From Modicisalibacter coralii (GTDB taxonomy: Bacteria; Pseudomonadota; Gammaproteobacteria; Pseudomonadales; Halomonadaceae): DNA of 64,000 bases. The notes below the pieces were generated by a model. It was given only the letters and a program-made list of their open reading frames with translations, was not told the DNA's origin and did not search any database. This document shows positions 10,695 through 17,408 of this stretch, piece by piece (within the stretch, counting starts at the first letter, position 1; every line of letters begins with the position of its first letter). The stretch lies in assembly GCF_004117855.1 (NCBI RefSeq), contig NZ_QWBW01000007.1, positions 62,517 through 126,516 on the forward strand, in the 5' to 3' direction. The position numbers and the translations under genes were made by a program.

Positions 10695-10802
10695 GGCGGC
10701 CCCGCCAGCCACATCCCGGCACACGCAGCCACCACTACCGTTGCTCCCTTCCGGGCCTGGCGGGGTTTGCGGTTTAGCGTTGCGGGAGGACCGACGGGGC
10801 CA
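10695..10802 (-). ncRNA. ffs: 4.5S RNA of the signal recognition particle
   Basis: The minus strand contains GGCCCGGAAGGGAGCAACGG, the conserved SRP RNA apical domain (Ffh-binding loop, GGAAG tetraloop region). It is followed by the family's closing segment TGTGCCGGGATGTGGCTGG. The outer ends GTGGCCCC and GGGGCCGCC pair to close the long hairpin. The length of about 107 nt fits gammaproteobacterial ffs. Its location close to dnaX is common in the group. Exact ends are estimated from the outer stem. Confidence 0.93.
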
Positions 10803-11046
10803 CCACAGTCATCGACCAGCGTTGAAAACACGAAAAATTCGTCAGCACGGTCGAAACACTCGGGCTTCAAGGCCTTGAACACGATTGCATTCAAGCACTT
10901 GCCTCGAGCGCCGCAGCACTATAACAGCGCCGGACCGGGCCCGCAAGCCTGTAGAACATCGCTGATCGAGCGCAGGCAGCCGGCGGATTTCGTCTAGGCT
11001 GTGGGGTAAGGTGACAGACGCAACTCGACTGCAAGGAGACATTGTC

Positions 11047-12270
11047 ATGAACAAGGACCCCAACAAGGGCTACGTCGCACTGCTTGGCTGGAGCCTGAAT
11101 GCCGTCGAGGCCGCCGAGGACTTCGATCGACGCTACGTGGTGGTCGCCCCGGACTGGGCGGAGGACTACTGCAAGCAGCATGACATTCCGTATCTGTCAT
11201 GGAACTTCGAACGCCTCAACGACCGCTCCCTGGAGATCGCCGAAACGCTCCGCGACATGGGCGTCGACGTGGCGATCCCGCTGTTCGAGGAGACCGTGGA
11301 ATGGGCCGGCGCCATCAACTCGGTGCTGCTCGACAACCCCCGGCTCTACGGCCAGGCCCTGCTGCTGCGCGACAAGGCACTCATGAAGCGGCGCGCCCAG
11401 CTGGGCGGGATCCGCGTGGGCATCTTCGAGGAGGCCCACGACAAGGAGGACGTGATCCGCTTTCTCAAGCGCGTCAACCAGACCCTGCTCAAGCTCGACG
11501 GCGATCCCAACGACCCCATTCACCTCAAGGCCTTCGACAAGGCCGGCTGCCTGGGCCACCGGGTAATCCGGACCCCGGACGAAGTCGACACCATCCCCGA
11601 GGAGGAATTTCCGGTCCTCATGGAATCGCACCTCGACGGCTGGGAGTTCGCCGTGGAAGCGTGGATCCACGACGGCAAGATCGCCTTCCTCAACATCTCC
11701 GAATACGTGACGCTGGGCTACTCGGTCTTCGTCCCGGCCACGCCGGAACTCGAGAAATATCGCCCCCAGATCACCGCGCAGATCGAGAAGTTGATCAAGG
11801 CCTTCGACATCGACTTCGGGCTGATCCATCCGGAATACTTCGTCACCAGCGATGGCGAGATGTACTTCGGCGAAGTCGCCTATCGACCGCCCGGCTTCAA
11901 GGTCTTCGAGCTGCTCGAACGCGCCTACGGCTTCAACGCCTATCAGGCGACCATCATGGTCTTCGACCCCAAGACCACCGAGGACGAGGTCAAGGCCTTC
12001 TTCCCCAAGGAGGTGGTCGATGCCAAGGGCCATGCCGGCTGTTTCGGCGTCTACCCGCGCCGGCGCGTGGTGAGTCGCCTGGAAATCCCCGAGGAGACCG
12101 AGGATCACCCCTACTTCGAGTCCCACGAACTGACCGCACCGCTCGAGGAAACCGTGACCAAGCGCACGGCGTTCGGCACCCACTGGGGGCTGGTCTACTT
12201 CTTCGGTGACGACCCTCATACCATGCGCGATCTGCTCAAGCATCAGGAAGAGCTCGACTTCTATGTATAA
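11047..12270 (+). CDS. ATP-grasp domain ligase of unknown substrate
   Basis: 407 aa from the ATG at 11047, which follows AAGGAG by 8-9 nt. The N-terminal part (about 1-110) is a Rossmann-like pre-ATP-grasp domain (YVALLGWSLNAVEAAEDFDRRYVVV). The central part has ATP-grasp strands (FPVLMESHLDGWEFAVEAWIHDGKIAFLNISEYV). The metal-binding strand reads YFGEVAYRPPG with Glu276 and Arg280. The usual E-x-N-x-R motif has Ala278 in place of Asn, which is odd. Family members form amide or thioester bonds through acyl-phosphates. It is 32 nt upstream of a papain-like protein, suggesting a ligase/hydrolase pair. The substrate cannot be read from sequence. Confidence 0.85.
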   Translation: MNKDPNKGYVALLGWSLNAVEAAEDFDRRYVVVAPDWAEDYCKQHDIPYLSWNFERLNDRSLEIAETLRDMGVDVAIPLFEETVEWAGAINSVLLDNPRLYGQALLLRDKALMKRRAQLGGIRVGIFEEAHDKEDVIRFLKRVNQTLLKLDGDPNDPIHLKAFDKAGCLGHRVIRTPDEVDTIPEEEFPVLMESHLDGWEFAVEAWIHDGKIAFLNISEYVTLGYSVFVPATPELEKYRPQITAQIEKLIKAFDIDFGLIHPEYFVTSDGEMYFGEVAYRPPGFKVFELLERAYGFNAYQATIMVFDPKTTEDEVKAFFPKEVVDAKGHAGCFGVYPRRRVVSRLEIPEETEDHPYFESHELTAPLEETVTKRTAFGTHWGLVYFFGDDPHTMRDLLKHQEELDFYV

Positions 12271-12302
12271 TCGCGCCATATCCTCGGGGACAAGGAGTCC
12301 GT

Positions 12303-14327
12303 GTGACGACCCATAACGGCGACCAAGACACGGAGGCCGGCAAGCTGGACGGCTTGCTGGCCAAGCTGGACGAGGCGACCGAGTTACTGGCCAACGCCCG
12401 GGACTTCGCCAAGCCCGGCAAGGTCCGGCGGGTCTTCGACACCGCCAAGCGCGTGATGCTGCAGGACGGGGGTTGCGCCGCCATCGAGCGGCGCGCCCGG
12501 GCCCTCGAGGAAGCCGGTGTCTTCAACGGCTCCGACTGGGCCTACCCCCAGATCCTGATTCCATCGCTGACACCGCATTCCCTCAAGAGCGGTGACCCCG
12601 ACACCGTGGTGCTCGAGGCGCTCAGCGAACTGCGCCTGCTGGCGGTGGCACGCGCGGCCTACGAGCATCCGCAGATCTCGGCCGAACAGGCGCATCACTA
12701 CCTGACACAAGTGCTGGCGATCAATCTCGAGCTACTGTTCACTGCGCCCAGCGAGGCGGAACGCGAGACCCAGGGGCGGCTGGCGCTGCTGACCCGCGCC
12801 CTGTTCGCCCACCTGGCGGACACCATCGGCTACGAGCACGTCATCGACCAGTTGATCGACGAGATCTGGCGCATCCTCCAGCAGCGCCCCATCCAGGTCG
12901 ATGCCGTCAAGCGCATGATCACCCAGATCGCCGTCTGCCAGGCCAACCCCGACATCGACCTCGGCACCAGCGGCCAGGGCGCCGACCGCCTGGTCAGCAG
13001 CCTGTTCGGCCCCACCCAGGCCTGCCGCGAGGACCCCGGGCTCGAGGTCTATGCCGAACGCCTCCAGCCGATGGACGCCAACGCCCTGCAGTACGAGGCC
13101 ACCGGCTTCGCCCGGGCGATGCACGACACCGGCCTGGTCTCGGCCTATCATCCGGTGCTGCTGCGCCACCTGCTCGACCATGGCGACCACCTGCTCGCCG
13201 AGGCGCTGGGCCTGTCGGCGACCGGCCGCGACTGCCTGCTGTGCTACCGGCAACTGGTCCAGGCGCTGATCGAGGAAGGCGTGCATCCGGCCACCCCGCA
13301 GGCCGTCTATGGCCTGGCGCTGATGCTCGAGCGCGGCATCCTCTACCAGCCGCCGGTGGCGCCGGCGCTGTGGCGCCAGATCGGCCTGCCGCTGTCGGCC
13401 TGGTCGCAGGAACGCATGCGCATGGCCTACGGCGATGCCGTCTCGCCACGGGCCCGGCTGCTCGAAGGGGTGCTGTGCATGCTGGGCCTGCCGCTGGGCG
13501 TCGGCCAGGGCAACAACCCCACCTGCCAGTCGGCAAGGGCACTGTCGATGTGGGCCTACAACGACCCCGACTATCTGCTGCAGATGGTCGCCTGGGCAGC
13601 CCGTGACGACGAGATCATCATGCACTTCGAGGGCATGCCGCTGTCGTCGATGGCCAGCCTTTCCGGGGTGGCCACCAACCTGCCGATGGACCTCGACCCG
13701 GTCTCGCTGCTGGTGGTGCCGCATCTCGACCGCATCTACGCCGAGATGGGTCGGCGCTGCATCGGCCGCGAGGGCGACCCCCACCGCTGGGTCAACCCGG
13801 AGTTCCACGGCTGGTGGGCCGGGCGCGGCTTTCGTATCAACGTCGACGTCGAGACCGGTCAGCTCGATCAGCTCGAGGATTTCCTGCGCCACTTCTACGC
13901 CAGCTACCACCCCTTCTACAACGGCAATCAGCCGCTGATCCATCCGCAGCCGGCGGGCATCGCGGTCACCGACAGCGCGGCGCGGTTCATCGGCTGGCAC
14001 GCCATCACCCTGCTGCGCGTCAACCTCGACCCGCAGGACACCATGCGCGCCTACTTCTTCAACCCCAACAACGACAGCGGCCAGGACTGGGGCGACGACG
14101 TCAAGGTCAGCACCGCCGGTCACGGCGAACGCTTCGGCGAGGCCTCACTGCCCTTCGAGCAGTTCGCCTCGCGCCTCTACATCTTCCACTACGACCCGCT
14201 TGAGCGCGGTGAGCTGGCCAACGTCACCCAGCAGGAGCTCGACCGGGTGATCGGCTACATTCATCGCAGCTGGGGCGCCAACCGGGTCCCCGCTGCCGAT
14301 CTCCAGGCCCATTCCGGCCCCGCCTGA
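12303..14327 (+). CDS. Uncharacterised 674-aa protein with papain-like C-terminal motifs
   Basis: GTG start with AAGGAG 6 nt ahead. I recognise no named family. Residues 1-390 look largely helical, with no signal peptide or membrane segment, so it is probably cytoplasmic. The last 270 residues hold three separated motifs that look like a papain-fold cysteine peptidase or amidase: Cys408 in NNPTCQSARALSMW, His566 in GWHAITLLRV, and Asn587/Asn590 in YFFNPNNDSGQDWG, which recalls the papain Asn-x-x-W-G loop. Order and spacing (158 and 21 residues) fit that fold. The call is by motif only. It follows the ATP-grasp gene by 32 nt and is followed by a terminator, so the two form a two-gene operon. 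Confidence 0.7.
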   Translation: MTTHNGDQDTEAGKLDGLLAKLDEATELLANARDFAKPGKVRRVFDTAKRVMLQDGGCAAIERRARALEEAGVFNGSDWAYPQILIPSLTPHSLKSGDPDTVVLEALSELRLLAVARAAYEHPQISAEQAHHYLTQVLAINLELLFTAPSEAERETQGRLALLTRALFAHLADTIGYEHVIDQLIDEIWRILQQRPIQVDAVKRMITQIAVCQANPDIDLGTSGQGADRLVSSLFGPTQACREDPGLEVYAERLQPMDANALQYEATGFARAMHDTGLVSAYHPVLLRHLLDHGDHLLAEALGLSATGRDCLLCYRQLVQALIEEGVHPATPQAVYGLALMLERGILYQPPVAPALWRQIGLPLSAWSQERMRMAYGDAVSPRARLLEGVLCMLGLPLGVGQGNNPTCQSARALSMWAYNDPDYLLQMVAWAARDDEIIMHFEGMPLSSMASLSGVATNLPMDLDPVSLLVVPHLDRIYAEMGRRCIGREGDPHRWVNPEFHGWWAGRGFRINVDVETGQLDQLEDFLRHFYASYHPFYNGNQPLIHPQPAGIAVTDSAARFIGWHAITLLRVNLDPQDTMRAYFFNPNNDSGQDWGDDVKVSTAGHGERFGEASLPFEQFASRLYIFHYDPLERGELANVTQQELDRVIGYIHRSWGANRVPAADLQAHSGPA

Positions 14328-14386: not shown

Positions 14387-14416
14387 AGACCCCGCCGGGA
14401 AAACCCGGCGGGGTCT
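14387..14416 (+). terminator. Terminator hairpin between the ATP-grasp operon and tctA
   Basis: Perfect 13-bp stem (agaccccgccggg with cccggcggggtct) and an aaaa loop. The minus strand continues with a short T-containing run (TCTTTG), so it may serve the convergent tctCBA transcript as well. Confidence 0.8.
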
Positions 14417-14452: not shown

Positions 14453-15967
14453 TCAGTCGGGCTGGTTGCCGGCCTTCATGCGACGCCGCAGGATCGGCCC
14501 GACGATCACCGGCAGGACCAGGCCGGCGATGGCGACCGCCCACAGGGTGATCGACAGCGGGCTGCTCCACAGGATCGTCCAGTCACCGTCGGAGATCTGC
14601 ATCGCGTGACGCAGGTTCTTCTCCATCTCCGGGCCCAGCAGCATGCCCAGGATCACCGGCACCAGCGGGATCTCCAGCTTGCGCAGGAAGTAGCCGGCCA
14701 CGCCGAAGGCCACCATGAAATACAGGTCGACAGCCGAGTGGCTGATCGAGTAGATCCCCACGAAGGCGACCATGGTCACCATCGGCAGCAGGTACATCGG
14801 CGGCACCGAGAGCAGCTTGACGAACACCCCGACCAGCGGAATGTTGAGCACCAGCAGCAGGAAGTTGCCGATCAGCAGCGCCGCGATGACACCCCACACC
14901 ACGTCGGCGTTCTGGGTGAACATCAGCGGCCCGGGCGTGATGTTGAAGGAGATCAGCATCGCCAGCAGCACCGCGGTGGTACCGCTGCCCGGCACGCCGA
15001 GGGTCAGCATGGGCACCAGCGCCCCGCTCGAGGCCCCGTTGTTGCCGGATTCCGGCGCGGCCACGCCACGCGAATCGCCTTCACCGAAGCGGTTCTTGCT
15101 GCCCAGGATCTTCTTCTCGAGGGTGTAGCTGATGAAGCTGCCCAGCGAGGCGCCGGCACCCGGCAGCACGCCGGAGACGAAACCGATCACGCCGCCGCGG
15201 AACGAGGTGGGCAGGATCTCGCGGATGTCCTTCCATTTCAGCGAGAGCTTGTTGACCTTGATCATCTCGCGACCGGCGCCGGCCTTCTCCTCGATGAACA
15301 CCAGCAACTCGGAAACCGCGAACAGACCGACGATGGCGATGATGAAATCGACGCCCTCGTAGAGCTCCAGGGTACCGAAGGTGAAGCGCTGCACGCCGGT
15401 CGACAGGTCGATGCCCACGGTGGCGATCATCAGCCCCAGCGCGGCGGCGAGGATGGTCTTGACCGGATTCTTGCCGGTAATGCCGCCCAGTGTGGCGAAG
15501 GCCAGCACGAACAGCGCGAAGTACTCGGCCGCGCCGAAGGTCAACGCGAACTTGGCCAGCAGCGGCGCCAGCAGGATCAGGCCCACGGTGGCGATCAGAC
15601 TACCGATGAACGAGGCCACCGCGGAGATCGCCAGCGCCTCGGCGGCGCGCCCCTGCTTGGCCATCGGGTAACCGTCGAGACAGGTCATCATCGCCGGCTC
15701 GTCACCGGGAATGTTGAGCAGGATGGACGAGATGCGCCCGCCGTACATCGCCCCGGCATAGACCGCGGTGAGCATGATCAACGCGGTTTCGGGACGCAGC
15801 CCCAGGGTGAACGCCAGCGGGATCAGGATCGCCACGCCGTTGGCCGGGCCGAGCCCGGGGAGTGCGCCGATCAGGGTCCCCAGGAAGGCCCCCATCAGCG
15901 CGAACATCAGGTTGTGCGGCTGCAGGGCGACGCCGAAGCCGTCCATCAAGTAATTGAGGGTATCCAT
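14453..15967 (-). CDS. tctA: Tripartite tricarboxylate transporter, large permease subunit TctA
   Basis: 504 aa, exactly the usual TctA length, from the ATG at 15967. A longer open frame upstream lies within tctB. The TctA signatures GALPGLGPANGVAILIPL and GGRISSILLNIPGDEPAMMTCLDGYPMAKQGRA are present, as are about 12 membrane segments and the second conserved GVLPGAGASLGSFISYTLE loop. With TctB and the periplasmic TctC it imports carboxylates such as citrate using an ion gradient. It overlaps the tctB stop by one base. Confidence 0.96.
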   Translation of the reverse strand: MDTLNYLMDGFGVALQPHNLMFALMGAFLGTLIGALPGLGPANGVAILIPLAFTLGLRPETALIMLTAVYAGAMYGGRISSILLNIPGDEPAMMTCLDGYPMAKQGRAAEALAISAVASFIGSLIATVGLILLAPLLAKFALTFGAAEYFALFVLAFATLGGITGKNPVKTILAAALGLMIATVGIDLSTGVQRFTFGTLELYEGVDFIIAIVGLFAVSELLVFIEEKAGAGREMIKVNKLSLKWKDIREILPTSFRGGVIGFVSGVLPGAGASLGSFISYTLEKKILGSKNRFGEGDSRGVAAPESGNNGASSGALVPMLTLGVPGSGTTAVLLAMLISFNITPGPLMFTQNADVVWGVIAALLIGNFLLLVLNIPLVGVFVKLLSVPPMYLLPMVTMVAFVGIYSISHSAVDLYFMVAFGVAGYFLRKLEIPLVPVILGMLLGPEMEKNLRHAMQISDGDWTILWSSPLSITLWAVAIAGLVLPVIVGPILRRRMKAGNQPD

Positions 15968-16422
15968 CAGTGTCCCTCCAGGAAGGCCAGCACGCCCCAG
16001 GGCAGCGGCAGCTCGAGCACGTAGTTGAATAGCGCGAAGACCGCGATGCCGCCGATCAGGCCGCTCAGATAGGCACGCAACGGCGGCGCGCCCATGCGCC
16101 AGCACAGGGTGCCGATGGCCAGCATGGTGGCCAGGACGAAGCCCACCGGTTCGAGAATCAGGGTATAGGCGATCAGCACCGCCACCGCGATCAGCATCTC
16201 CAGCGCCGTGCGTCCCTTCGGCCAGGGATTACCGGGGTCGGGCCGCACGATCAGGTAGAGACTGCAGGCCGCCAGCACCACGCTGAGAATCGTCGGGAAG
16301 GTCTTGGGTCCGACGGCCTCGGCGCCGCCGAACGGCTCGGGAAACTGCTGGGCGCCCCAGCCGTACGCGACGGCCAGGGCGAGCATCAGCAGACCGAAGA
16401 CCCGGTCGTTGAGACGCAGCAT
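15967..16422 (-). CDS. tctB: Tripartite tricarboxylate transporter, small permease subunit TctB
   Basis: 151 aa with four hydrophobic segments (near 8-22, 40-58, 72-92 and 115-135) and the typical opening LNDRVFGLLMLALAVAYGWGA and FPEPFG...GPKTFPTILS. It overlaps tctC and tctA by one base at each end (TAATG and TGATG), so the three subunits are probably made in step. Confidence 0.93.
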   Translation of the reverse strand: MLRLNDRVFGLLMLALAVAYGWGAQQFPEPFGGAEAVGPKTFPTILSVVLAACSLYLIVRPDPGNPWPKGRTALEMLIAVAVLIAYTLILEPVGFVLATMLAIGTLCWRMGAPPLRAYLSGLIGGIAVFALFNYVLELPLPWGVLAFLEGH

Positions 16423-17408
16423 TACTTGATCAGCCCGATTTCTTTGGACAGGTTCTGGATGTCCTGGATCTGGCTCTTGACGTACTGCTCGAACTGGCCT
16501 TCACCCGGATGGAACGGCATCAGCCCGTTCTTCTGCATGACGTCCTTCCACTCGTCGCTCTTGTAGAGCGTGTCGATGGCGTCGACCCAGTACTGCTTGG
16601 CGTCATCGGAGACCTTGCCCGGCATGTAGAAGCCACGCCAGTTGGCGCCGATGGAATCGATCCCCTGCTCCTTGGCGGTGGGGATGTCCGCGAACTTGCC
16701 CGGCAGACGCTCGTCGGAGAGCACCGCGAGCACGCGCAGGTCGCCGGACTCCATGAAGCCCTGGGCCTCGGAGATGTCGCCGGTGAAGGCATCGACGTGA
16801 CCGCCGACCACCTGGGTCATCGCTTCGCCGCCGTTGTTGTACGACAGGTAGGGAATCTTCGGCAGATTCTCGACGCCGGCCTTGTTGGCGGTGATCAGGA
16901 CCTTGAGGTGGTCCCAGCCGCCGTTGGCGCTGCCGCCGGCGAACTTGACCGACTTGGGATTCTTCTTCAGCGCGTCCATCAGGTCGTTGAGGTTCTGGTA
17001 CTGGGAATCCTTGGCCACGGCGATGACACCGTAGTCGGCCCCCACGGCCCCGATCCAGTTGACGTCATCGGCCGTCATGCCCGGGAACTGGCCCTGGGCG
17101 AGACGCGTGGTGGTGGCGGTGGACGCCGCAACCAGCAACTGCGGATCGTCGTCGCGCTTGCTGACGGTATGGGCATAGGCCACCCCGCCGCCGGCGCCGG
17201 CCATGTTGGTGGTCTGGACGCTGGCCGGCACCAGATCGAGATCCTCGAGCACCTTGCCCACGCTGCGGCAGGTGAAATCCCAGCCGCCGCCCGGATCGGC
17301 AGGCGCGATGCAGTCGACCTTGCCGGACGGCTGGAAGGCCATCGCCAGGCCGGCGCTGAGGGTCAGCGACGCGGCGGCGAGAAACTTGAGAGGCGTTCTC
17401 ATCGACAT
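16422..17408 (-). CDS. tctC: Tripartite tricarboxylate transporter, periplasmic binding protein TctC
   Basis: 328 aa with a signal peptide (about 1-24, ending GLAMA). The mature part begins FQPSGKVDCIAPADPGGGWDFTCRS, the Bug/TctC ligand-binding loop with its PGGGWD motif. The second loop, KFAGGSANGGWDHLK, and VGGHVDAFTGDISEA are also present. An AGGGGA-type ribosome-binding site supports the first ATG. It is the first gene of tctCBA, divergent from the iclR-tctDE operon with palindromic operators between them. The substrate is probably a di- or tricarboxylate. Confidence 0.95.
   Translation of the reverse strand: MSMRTPLKFLAAASLTLSAGLAMAFQPSGKVDCIAPADPGGGWDFTCRSVGKVLEDLDLVPASVQTTNMAGAGGGVAYAHTVSKRDDDPQLLVAASTATTTRLAQGQFPGMTADDVNWIGAVGADYGVIAVAKDSQYQNLNDLMDALKKNPKSVKFAGGSANGGWDHLKVLITANKAGVENLPKIPYLSYNNGGEAMTQVVGGHVDAFTGDISEAQGFMESGDLRVLAVLSDERLPGKFADIPTAKEQGIDSIGANWRGFYMPGKVSDDAKQYWVDAIDTLYKSDEWKDVMQKNGLMPFHPGEGQFEQYVKSQIQDIQNLSKEIGLIK

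Follow-up and report, generated by a model that had tools for sequence, protein, structure and literature searches.

In a 64,000-nucleotide stretch of the genome of Modicisalibacter coralii (contig NZ_QWBW01000007.1, positions 62,517 to 126,516; the whole of this stretch is called the window), the gene for an ATP-grasp protein (gene A) is followed by a gene for a probably papain-like protein that carries no family name (gene B). We find that A and B are present in exactly the same genomes of a family sample and of a class sample, and that a third gene, D, encoding a class II histone deacetylase (HDAC)-like amidohydrolase, occurs with them in near-lockstep and is clustered with them in several distant genomes. 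The joint presence of A, B and D suggests a pathway, so far undescribed, in which an amide is made and perhaps also broken. Both reading frames lie where a sequence-only reading had placed them, and according to the open reading frame list and the letters of the window they are 32 nt apart on the + strand:

11047..12270, + strand: gene A, predicted ATP-grasp carboxylate-amine ligase, 407 aa, ATG start
12303..14327, + strand: gene B, probably papain-like protein of an unnamed family, 674 aa, GTG start

Co-occurrence and linkage of genes A, B and D

Of 81 genomes sampled from the family, 47 contain both A and B and the other 34 contain neither (lists compared by hand). Within genera g468, g471 and g5, some members have both genes and the rest have neither. 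In a sample of 369 genomes of the class, B is present in 13 and A in the same 13 (Fisher p 3e-24, not corrected for kinship). The organism's own genome is counted in both samples. The class searches scored at most three candidates per genome for B, three for A (in the rows listed, every candidate found) and five for D, so that a weak copy could be missed, and the sameness of the three 369-genome draws rests on equal numbers and on equal listed handles (about 30 genomes listed).

A scan of bacterial genomes with B gave at least 593 stretches, at least 587 of which encode relatives (several stretches may represent one locus), and the homologues reach other classes of the phylum. The 80 best-scoring loci, hence close relatives, were named, and in 74 of them A lies directly upstream of B on the same strand. 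Six loci without a usable adjoining A (L034, L037, L065, L067, L071 and L075) were scored as misses; there, A is missing or a remnant beside B, and each of the six genomes has an A of ~80% identity elsewhere. The sequence-only reading had treated A and B as a pair that would seldom be found apart, and these counts, together with the identical genome sets, bear it out.

At three of the six loci, in two Vreelandella genomes and one Halomonas genome, C-terminal remnants of A stand directly upstream of B (L067:7655-7968, L071:7852-7971 and L075:7851-7970). Since B is full-length beside each remnant and an intact A lies elsewhere, A appears to be decaying in place. At G759:C10:753415-754598, A is in two pieces with an internal stop and the adjoining B is open, which reflects either a broken A or an assembly error.

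Among 27 further-numbered copies of B (L081-L107, the window's own included), 24 have A within ~5 kb, and the arrangements A-B, B-A, head-to-head and convergent are all found. As several orders exist, the linkage has outlived rearrangement; taken with the identical genome sets in both samples, it would be difficult to account for if the two genes had no function in common. In all 94 pairs that qualified for comparison (more than 300 aa of A and more than 500 aa of B aligned), A is the better conserved of the two proteins; in the seven pairs with B identity under 65% (40–60%), the identity of A is 78–85%.

A second clade of A, ~80% identical and with an N-terminal extension (open reading frames of at least 435 aa), is present at L135, L136, L137, L140 and L141, and also at L138 and L139. 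Five of these seven loci are without B within ~8 kb though the same genome has B elsewhere, and at L138 and L139 a second B adjoins.

When neighbouring genes were clustered, D emerged next to A and B in a number of distant genomes. The order A-B-D on one strand is seen in L062 (D cut by the contig end) and L099, and one-strand clusters of other order are B-D-A in L148 and B-A-D in L149; in the L150 cluster, D is convergent to B and A is divergent. These clusters come from five genomes, and the four with known kinship are spread over four families. In L144, D lies 3 kb from an extra A. D is present in 19 of 22 B-positive genomes and in none of 20 B-negative genomes of a first sample. With a rule set after this first 42-genome result (E <= 1e-80, near full length), D turns up in 12 of the class's 13 A/B genomes and in 0 of the 356 others (Fisher p 1e-21, not corrected for kinship); those 13 had been seen beforehand, so that what this count adds is the remaining genomes, all but a few of which were new. 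The two-gene system proposed by the sequence-only reading has thus held as a pair, and its third member had been missed.

The D of this genome lies on another contig (G000:C35:11005-12084) and contains the motifs RPPGHH, DAHHGNGT, AGFD and LEGGY. The best solved relatives of D are HDAC6 (E 5e-115 for the copy in G193), and by these relatives and its catalytic motifs D is predicted to be a class II HDAC-like deacetylase. In PMC11532494, RPP and GGY motifs are tied to robust deacetylases and are absent from longer-chain deacylases; D shares RPPGHH and EGGY with these bacterial enzymes that do not act on longer acyl groups, whereas its own cluster falls outside those assayed in that study. At the place of the HDAC10 PEG gatekeeper, D has a DLAL- or DLAM-like sequence, and no HDAC10-type Glu gatekeeper is seen in an alignment judged by eye. 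On this account polyamine deacetylation was not adopted as the role of D; bacterial polyamine deacetylases are also described as lacking this Glu (PMC11532494), so that the role keeps some probability.

Among the neighbours of D, no partner is common to more than close relatives. GNAT acetyltransferase-like genes, recognised by eye, lie directly beside D at L164:10106-10591 and L168:9871-10413 (the latter position recalculated from the reverse strand). Halomonas sp. PA16-9 has A, B and D on one 1.83-Mb record, NZ_CP040452.1, which is named as a plasmid; D is ~120 kb from the other two, and the record, nearly devoid of annotation, may be a piece of chromosome.

Sequence and predicted structure of proteins A and B

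Features within the two coding regions are as follows:

11833..11874, + strand: codons of E263 (11833-11835) and E276 (11872-11874), candidate metal-binding acids of A, from alignment with 4wd3
12303..13487, + strand: B residues 1-395, predicted all-helical N-terminal domain, from the secondary structure of the model
13497..14228, + strand: B residues ~399-642, probable papain-like catalytic domain, from structural alignment of the model
13506..13526, + strand: codons of Q402 (13506-13508) and C408 (13524-13526) in a QGNNPTC motif, candidate oxyanion-hole Gln and nucleophile, 28/28 rows
13998..14000, + strand: codon of H566 in a WHA motif, candidate catalytic His, 28/28 rows
14061..14063, + strand: codon of N587 in an FNPN motif, candidate catalytic Asn, 28/28 rows

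Protein A matches the Pfam family ATP-grasp_4 with E 2.6e-5 (24.3 bits, below the cut-off of 27), and its best NCBIfam match, NF005543 (PRK07206), reaches 31.7 bits, missing the cut-off of 302 by far. A sequence search of the PDB finds the L-amino acid ligase 4wd3 (E 6e-5), and a 20-row profile of A finds 4dim, 4wd3 and 3vot (E 5e-4 to 2e-3), all of which we take to be ATP-grasp structures; 4wd3 and 3vot, matched with E 7e-4 to 2e-3, are L-amino acid ligases. These ligases have the ATP-grasp core in common with A, whose HPEY..GEVAYR sequence aligns with HLEI..GEIAMR in 4wd3, but the relationship is distant. In the profile comparison, Glu263 and Glu276 of A fall opposite acids of 4wd3 that lie in its HLEIYRT and GEIAMR stretches. 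Both A residues are invariant in all 20 rows (window included); we presume that they bind metal. Since the matches to family models and PDB entries are weak and the aligned glutamates are invariant, A is, judged from its sequence, a real but distant ATP-grasp enzyme, as had been suggested, and is likely to be active.

Protein B has no family match in Pfam, NCBIfam, PADLOC or PHROGs, in agreement with the earlier view that it belongs to no known family. Neither PF00648 (calpain, C2) nor PF00112 (papain, C1) is matched at E <= 1. There is no credible match among PDB sequences, and a search of these with a B profile (hmmsearch) returns only chance matches to helical repeats. The residues at positions 408, 566 and 587 are indeed the Cys, His and Asn that had been singled out as a possible active site. 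All three are invariant in the 65 rows of a close alignment (the window and 64 of the 80 fetched loci). A divergent alignment has 28 rows: two for the window's B, once as it stands in the window and once in the genome copy, and 26 for homologues whose identity ranges from 84% to 40%. Its invariant positions number 88 and include Gln402, Cys408, His566 and Asn587 (28/28 rows). As the three residues are invariant in both alignments, their order is not due to chance. Gln402 lies six residues ahead of Cys408 (Q-x5-C), and papain likewise has a Gln six residues before its catalytic Cys.

The AlphaFold model of B has a mean predicted local distance difference test score (pLDDT) of 77.8. Its all-helical N-terminal domain shows weak matches to assorted helical proteins only. 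In the C-terminal part, Cys408 is near the start of helix 406-420, His566 is in strand 562-575 and Asn587 follows directly after strand 581-586. Residues 370-630 align with calpain-3 with a Z-score of 6.6 (205 residues, 4.5 Å). Calpains fill the first 11 rows of the VIA-align output (Z 6.1-6.6, 197-219 residues, 10-14% identity); further entries include three bacterial cysteine proteases, 5wdk, 3pw3 and 6w4n, which we take to be papain-like. Foldseek matches the calpain core 1mdw with E 0.46 and a probability of 0.75, and a viral fold search with the model finds nothing at E <= 0.001. In a comparison of profiles, the best 28 columns pair Cys408 of B with the calpain Cys, the comparison overall not being significant; the catalytic-domain profile of B against one calpain-like and three C1-like proteases gives E 0.2, 0.05 and 0.2, and reversed controls are not clearly worse (E 0.4, 0.4 and 0.2). 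B shares with calpain (C2) and papain (C1) the series Q-x5-C, then His, then Asn-Pro, along with a modest structural match to calpains; it differs from them in its helical N-terminal domain and in the low identity of the 11 calpain rows.

Gene boundaries and surroundings

The elements flanking the two genes are:

11033..11038, + strand: AAGGAG, likely ribosome-binding site of A, by sequence reading
12293..12298, + strand: AAGGAG, likely ribosome-binding site of B, inside the gap between A and B, by sequence reading
14387..14416, no strand assigned: perfect 13-bp hairpin with an AAAA loop, between B and a convergent operon, by RNA folding

The open reading frame list begins the frame of A at an upstream GTG at 11011, and we place the start at ATG 11047 because nearly all full-length homologues align from there. 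Stretches of 19 residues in A and B average at most 1.22 on the Kyte-Doolittle scale, and values in the first 60 residues stay below 0.64; both proteins had been described as cytoplasmic in appearance, and the values are consistent with that location.

A strong terminator had been proposed to close the operon. What stands of it is the perfect hairpin: the 61 nt folded around it, which include a second small hairpin, give -37.7 kcal/mol (z -6.5). The hairpin lacks a T-run on the + strand, and a terminator scan of the window did not list it; it may serve as a terminator in both directions, though one with no clear T-run.

Just upstream of A, on the opposite strand, lies a bacterial small signal recognition particle RNA (window 10700-10796, - strand; Rfam RF00169, 71.8 bits). 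An RNA element was considered and rejected, this RNA on the other strand being the sole Rfam match in the window. Convergent with B are three genes that by eye resemble a tripartite tricarboxylate transporter (window 14453-17408, - strand). We also considered a defence system and dropped this reading, because PADLOC gives no match, B has no phage match at E <= 0.01 and the neighbours in the window look ordinary by eye.

A predicted amide pathway and its alternatives

We consider it likely that A, B and, in most genomes, D work in one pathway in which an amide is made and broken. That the three, with D encoded elsewhere in the genome, constitute a single cytoplasmic amide module is the reading we favour, if with somewhat less assurance. 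As an ATP-grasp enzyme, A would use ATP to activate a carboxylate, which it would then couple to an amine. B, with a papain-type Cys-His-Asn site behind a helical N-terminal domain, would attack an amide of the same pathway through Cys408 and form a thioester, and the outcome would be either hydrolysis of the amide or onward transfer of the acyl group. D, as a zinc enzyme, would remove an acetyl group from an amine and thereby free or recycle the amine used by A. In the simplest joint order, D would unmask the amine, A would cap it and B would release or transfer the cap. We infer these activities, the order of the steps and any action of B on the very bond that A makes; that B cleaves the product of A itself is a fair supposition to which we give slightly less than even weight, and the notion that A and B make a tag and remove it again is a guess. 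Deacetylase, ligase and amidase chemistry also come together in mycothiol metabolism, in unrelated proteins.

Several observations weigh against this reading. No usable model of A was obtained (pLDDT 46), probably because its alignment is too uniform (91% mean column identity, 31 of the best 80 loci). In the model of B, the loop before the Cys (residues 398-408) has a pLDDT under 50. The calpain rows fall below the VIA-align yardstick, by which a Z-score under 8 is not safe, and unrelated helical proteins follow directly after them with Z 6.0 and 5.9. Foldseek gives a proteasome chain as its best match (E 0.095) and nothing at E <= 0.001, and a B profile against four C1/C2 proteases is not significant (probability under 2%). 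D is missing from three of the 22 B-positive genomes (G395, G548 and G016), and in most genomes, the organism's own included, it lies apart from A and B. Three of the 27 further-numbered B copies have no A nearby: the contigs of L101 and L102 are without A, and in G670 the A and the B of L104 are ~55 kb apart. Nor does the family sample show any tie between the copy numbers of A and B: there are two or three B and one A in G817, G762, G780, G784, G792, G803, G804 and G814, and two A and one B in G050, G314 and G793.

Given the poor modelling of the loop that precedes the Cys, and Z-scores that stay under 8, the papain fold of B is probable and not proven. The sequence-only reading had expected a papain-like structure prediction, and the model is indeed most like papain-fold proteases, but at moderate scores. 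The separate copies and the differing copy numbers would suit a B that is an independent intracellular cysteine protease and merely shares an operon with A. Set against the identical genome sets in the samples of 81 and 369 genomes and the linkage in several orders, we regard such independence as quite improbable.

Both enzymes might instead be biosynthetic, with A making a dipeptide-like intermediate and B, as a transamidase, moving its acyl part to a second amine, in which case no removal takes place and a solute or a cofactor might be the end product. A stands before B on the same strand in 74 of the 80 loci, as would suit consecutive steps, and papain-fold enzymes are generally known to include transferases. 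Genera that we take to be halophilic or marine make up most of the hosts of the best 80 B loci. A solute used against osmotic or other stress would suit such hosts, the list being biased to relatives of the query. However, clustering and inspection by eye find no further biosynthetic gene that is constantly linked, and the large helical domain of B would be unusual for a small-molecule transferase. On balance we think this version unlikely, though it deserves more weight than any other alternative to the amide module.

Less probable again is a reversible protein modification, in which A would add an amino acid or short peptide, B would remove it and D would deacetylate lysines of the same target. 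The ~395-residue helical domain predicted for B could bind proteins, the best solved relatives of D are HDAC6, and the greater conservation of A than of B in all 94 pairs would also fit. A pair of such a sort has been shown experimentally: according to PMC11957791, the ATP-grasp protein RimK and the peptidase RimB, which removes glutamates, are an established ligase/peptidase pair acting on the ribosomal protein RpsF, and their likeness to A and B lies in an ATP-grasp ligase accompanied by a peptidase that undoes its product. RimB, in contrast, is a retropepsin-like aspartic peptidase and B is a Cys-His-Asn protein, and the solved structures nearest to A in sequence are those of L-amino acid ligases and of a PurD-like protein, small-molecule ligases and not RimK. 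Tubulin is acted on by a ligase, a cysteine detyrosinase and HDAC6, a set that can be likened to A, B and D. By this analogy the three might write a code at a protein end, A attaching a peptide or a single amino acid to some conserved protein of the cytoplasm, B, with its helical domain serving for recognition, removing it and the HDAC6-like D editing the same protein, a proposal that we hold to be a long shot.

The favoured amide module has several relatives in part. Glutathionylspermidine synthetase/amidase, the example offered in the sequence-only reading, is one fused protein, whereas A and B are two genes. Like trypanothione synthetase, it combines a ligase with a papain-like CHAP amidase on one conjugate (CHAP class as given in PMC10318531). 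For A and B, there is no Pfam match to CHAP or GSP_synth at E <= 1, and no NCBIfam match to them either. Transglutaminase-like proteins have a papain-related fold. The Anbu operon (ATP-grasp, alphaE, transglutaminase-like protein and Anbu), described with an unproven role in PMC6376114, likewise pairs an ATP-grasp protein with a transglutaminase-like protein and a further hydrolase, but A and B have no transglutaminase, alphaE or Anbu family match in Pfam and NCBIfam, the neighbours being judged by eye. In the Pseudomonas rlo operon, an ATP-grasp protein is encoded together with a retropepsin that is secreted and a transglutaminase protein that is inactive (PMC12239564). By the family searches made here, the A/B/D set is none of RimK/RimB, the Anbu operon and the rlo operon. 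The amidoligase work of Iyer et al. in 2009 is reportedly a likely precedent for predicted ATP-grasp/peptidase operons. Among titles and abstracts of open-access PMC, we recognised no paper on the A/B pair or the A/B/D trio, nor one that ties D to A and B.

Pairs of an ATP-grasp enzyme and a peptidase are a known theme, to which a papain-like member together with a deacetylase would add a new version. B represents a probable papain-like family whose active-site residues are invariant; the four libraries used give it no name, yet 47 of the 81 genomes sampled in the organism's own family carry it. The lockstep of B with one ATP-grasp clade and its near-lockstep with one deacetylase clade define a module, and this module would make a metabolite or a protein modification directly testable with three genes and three proteins.

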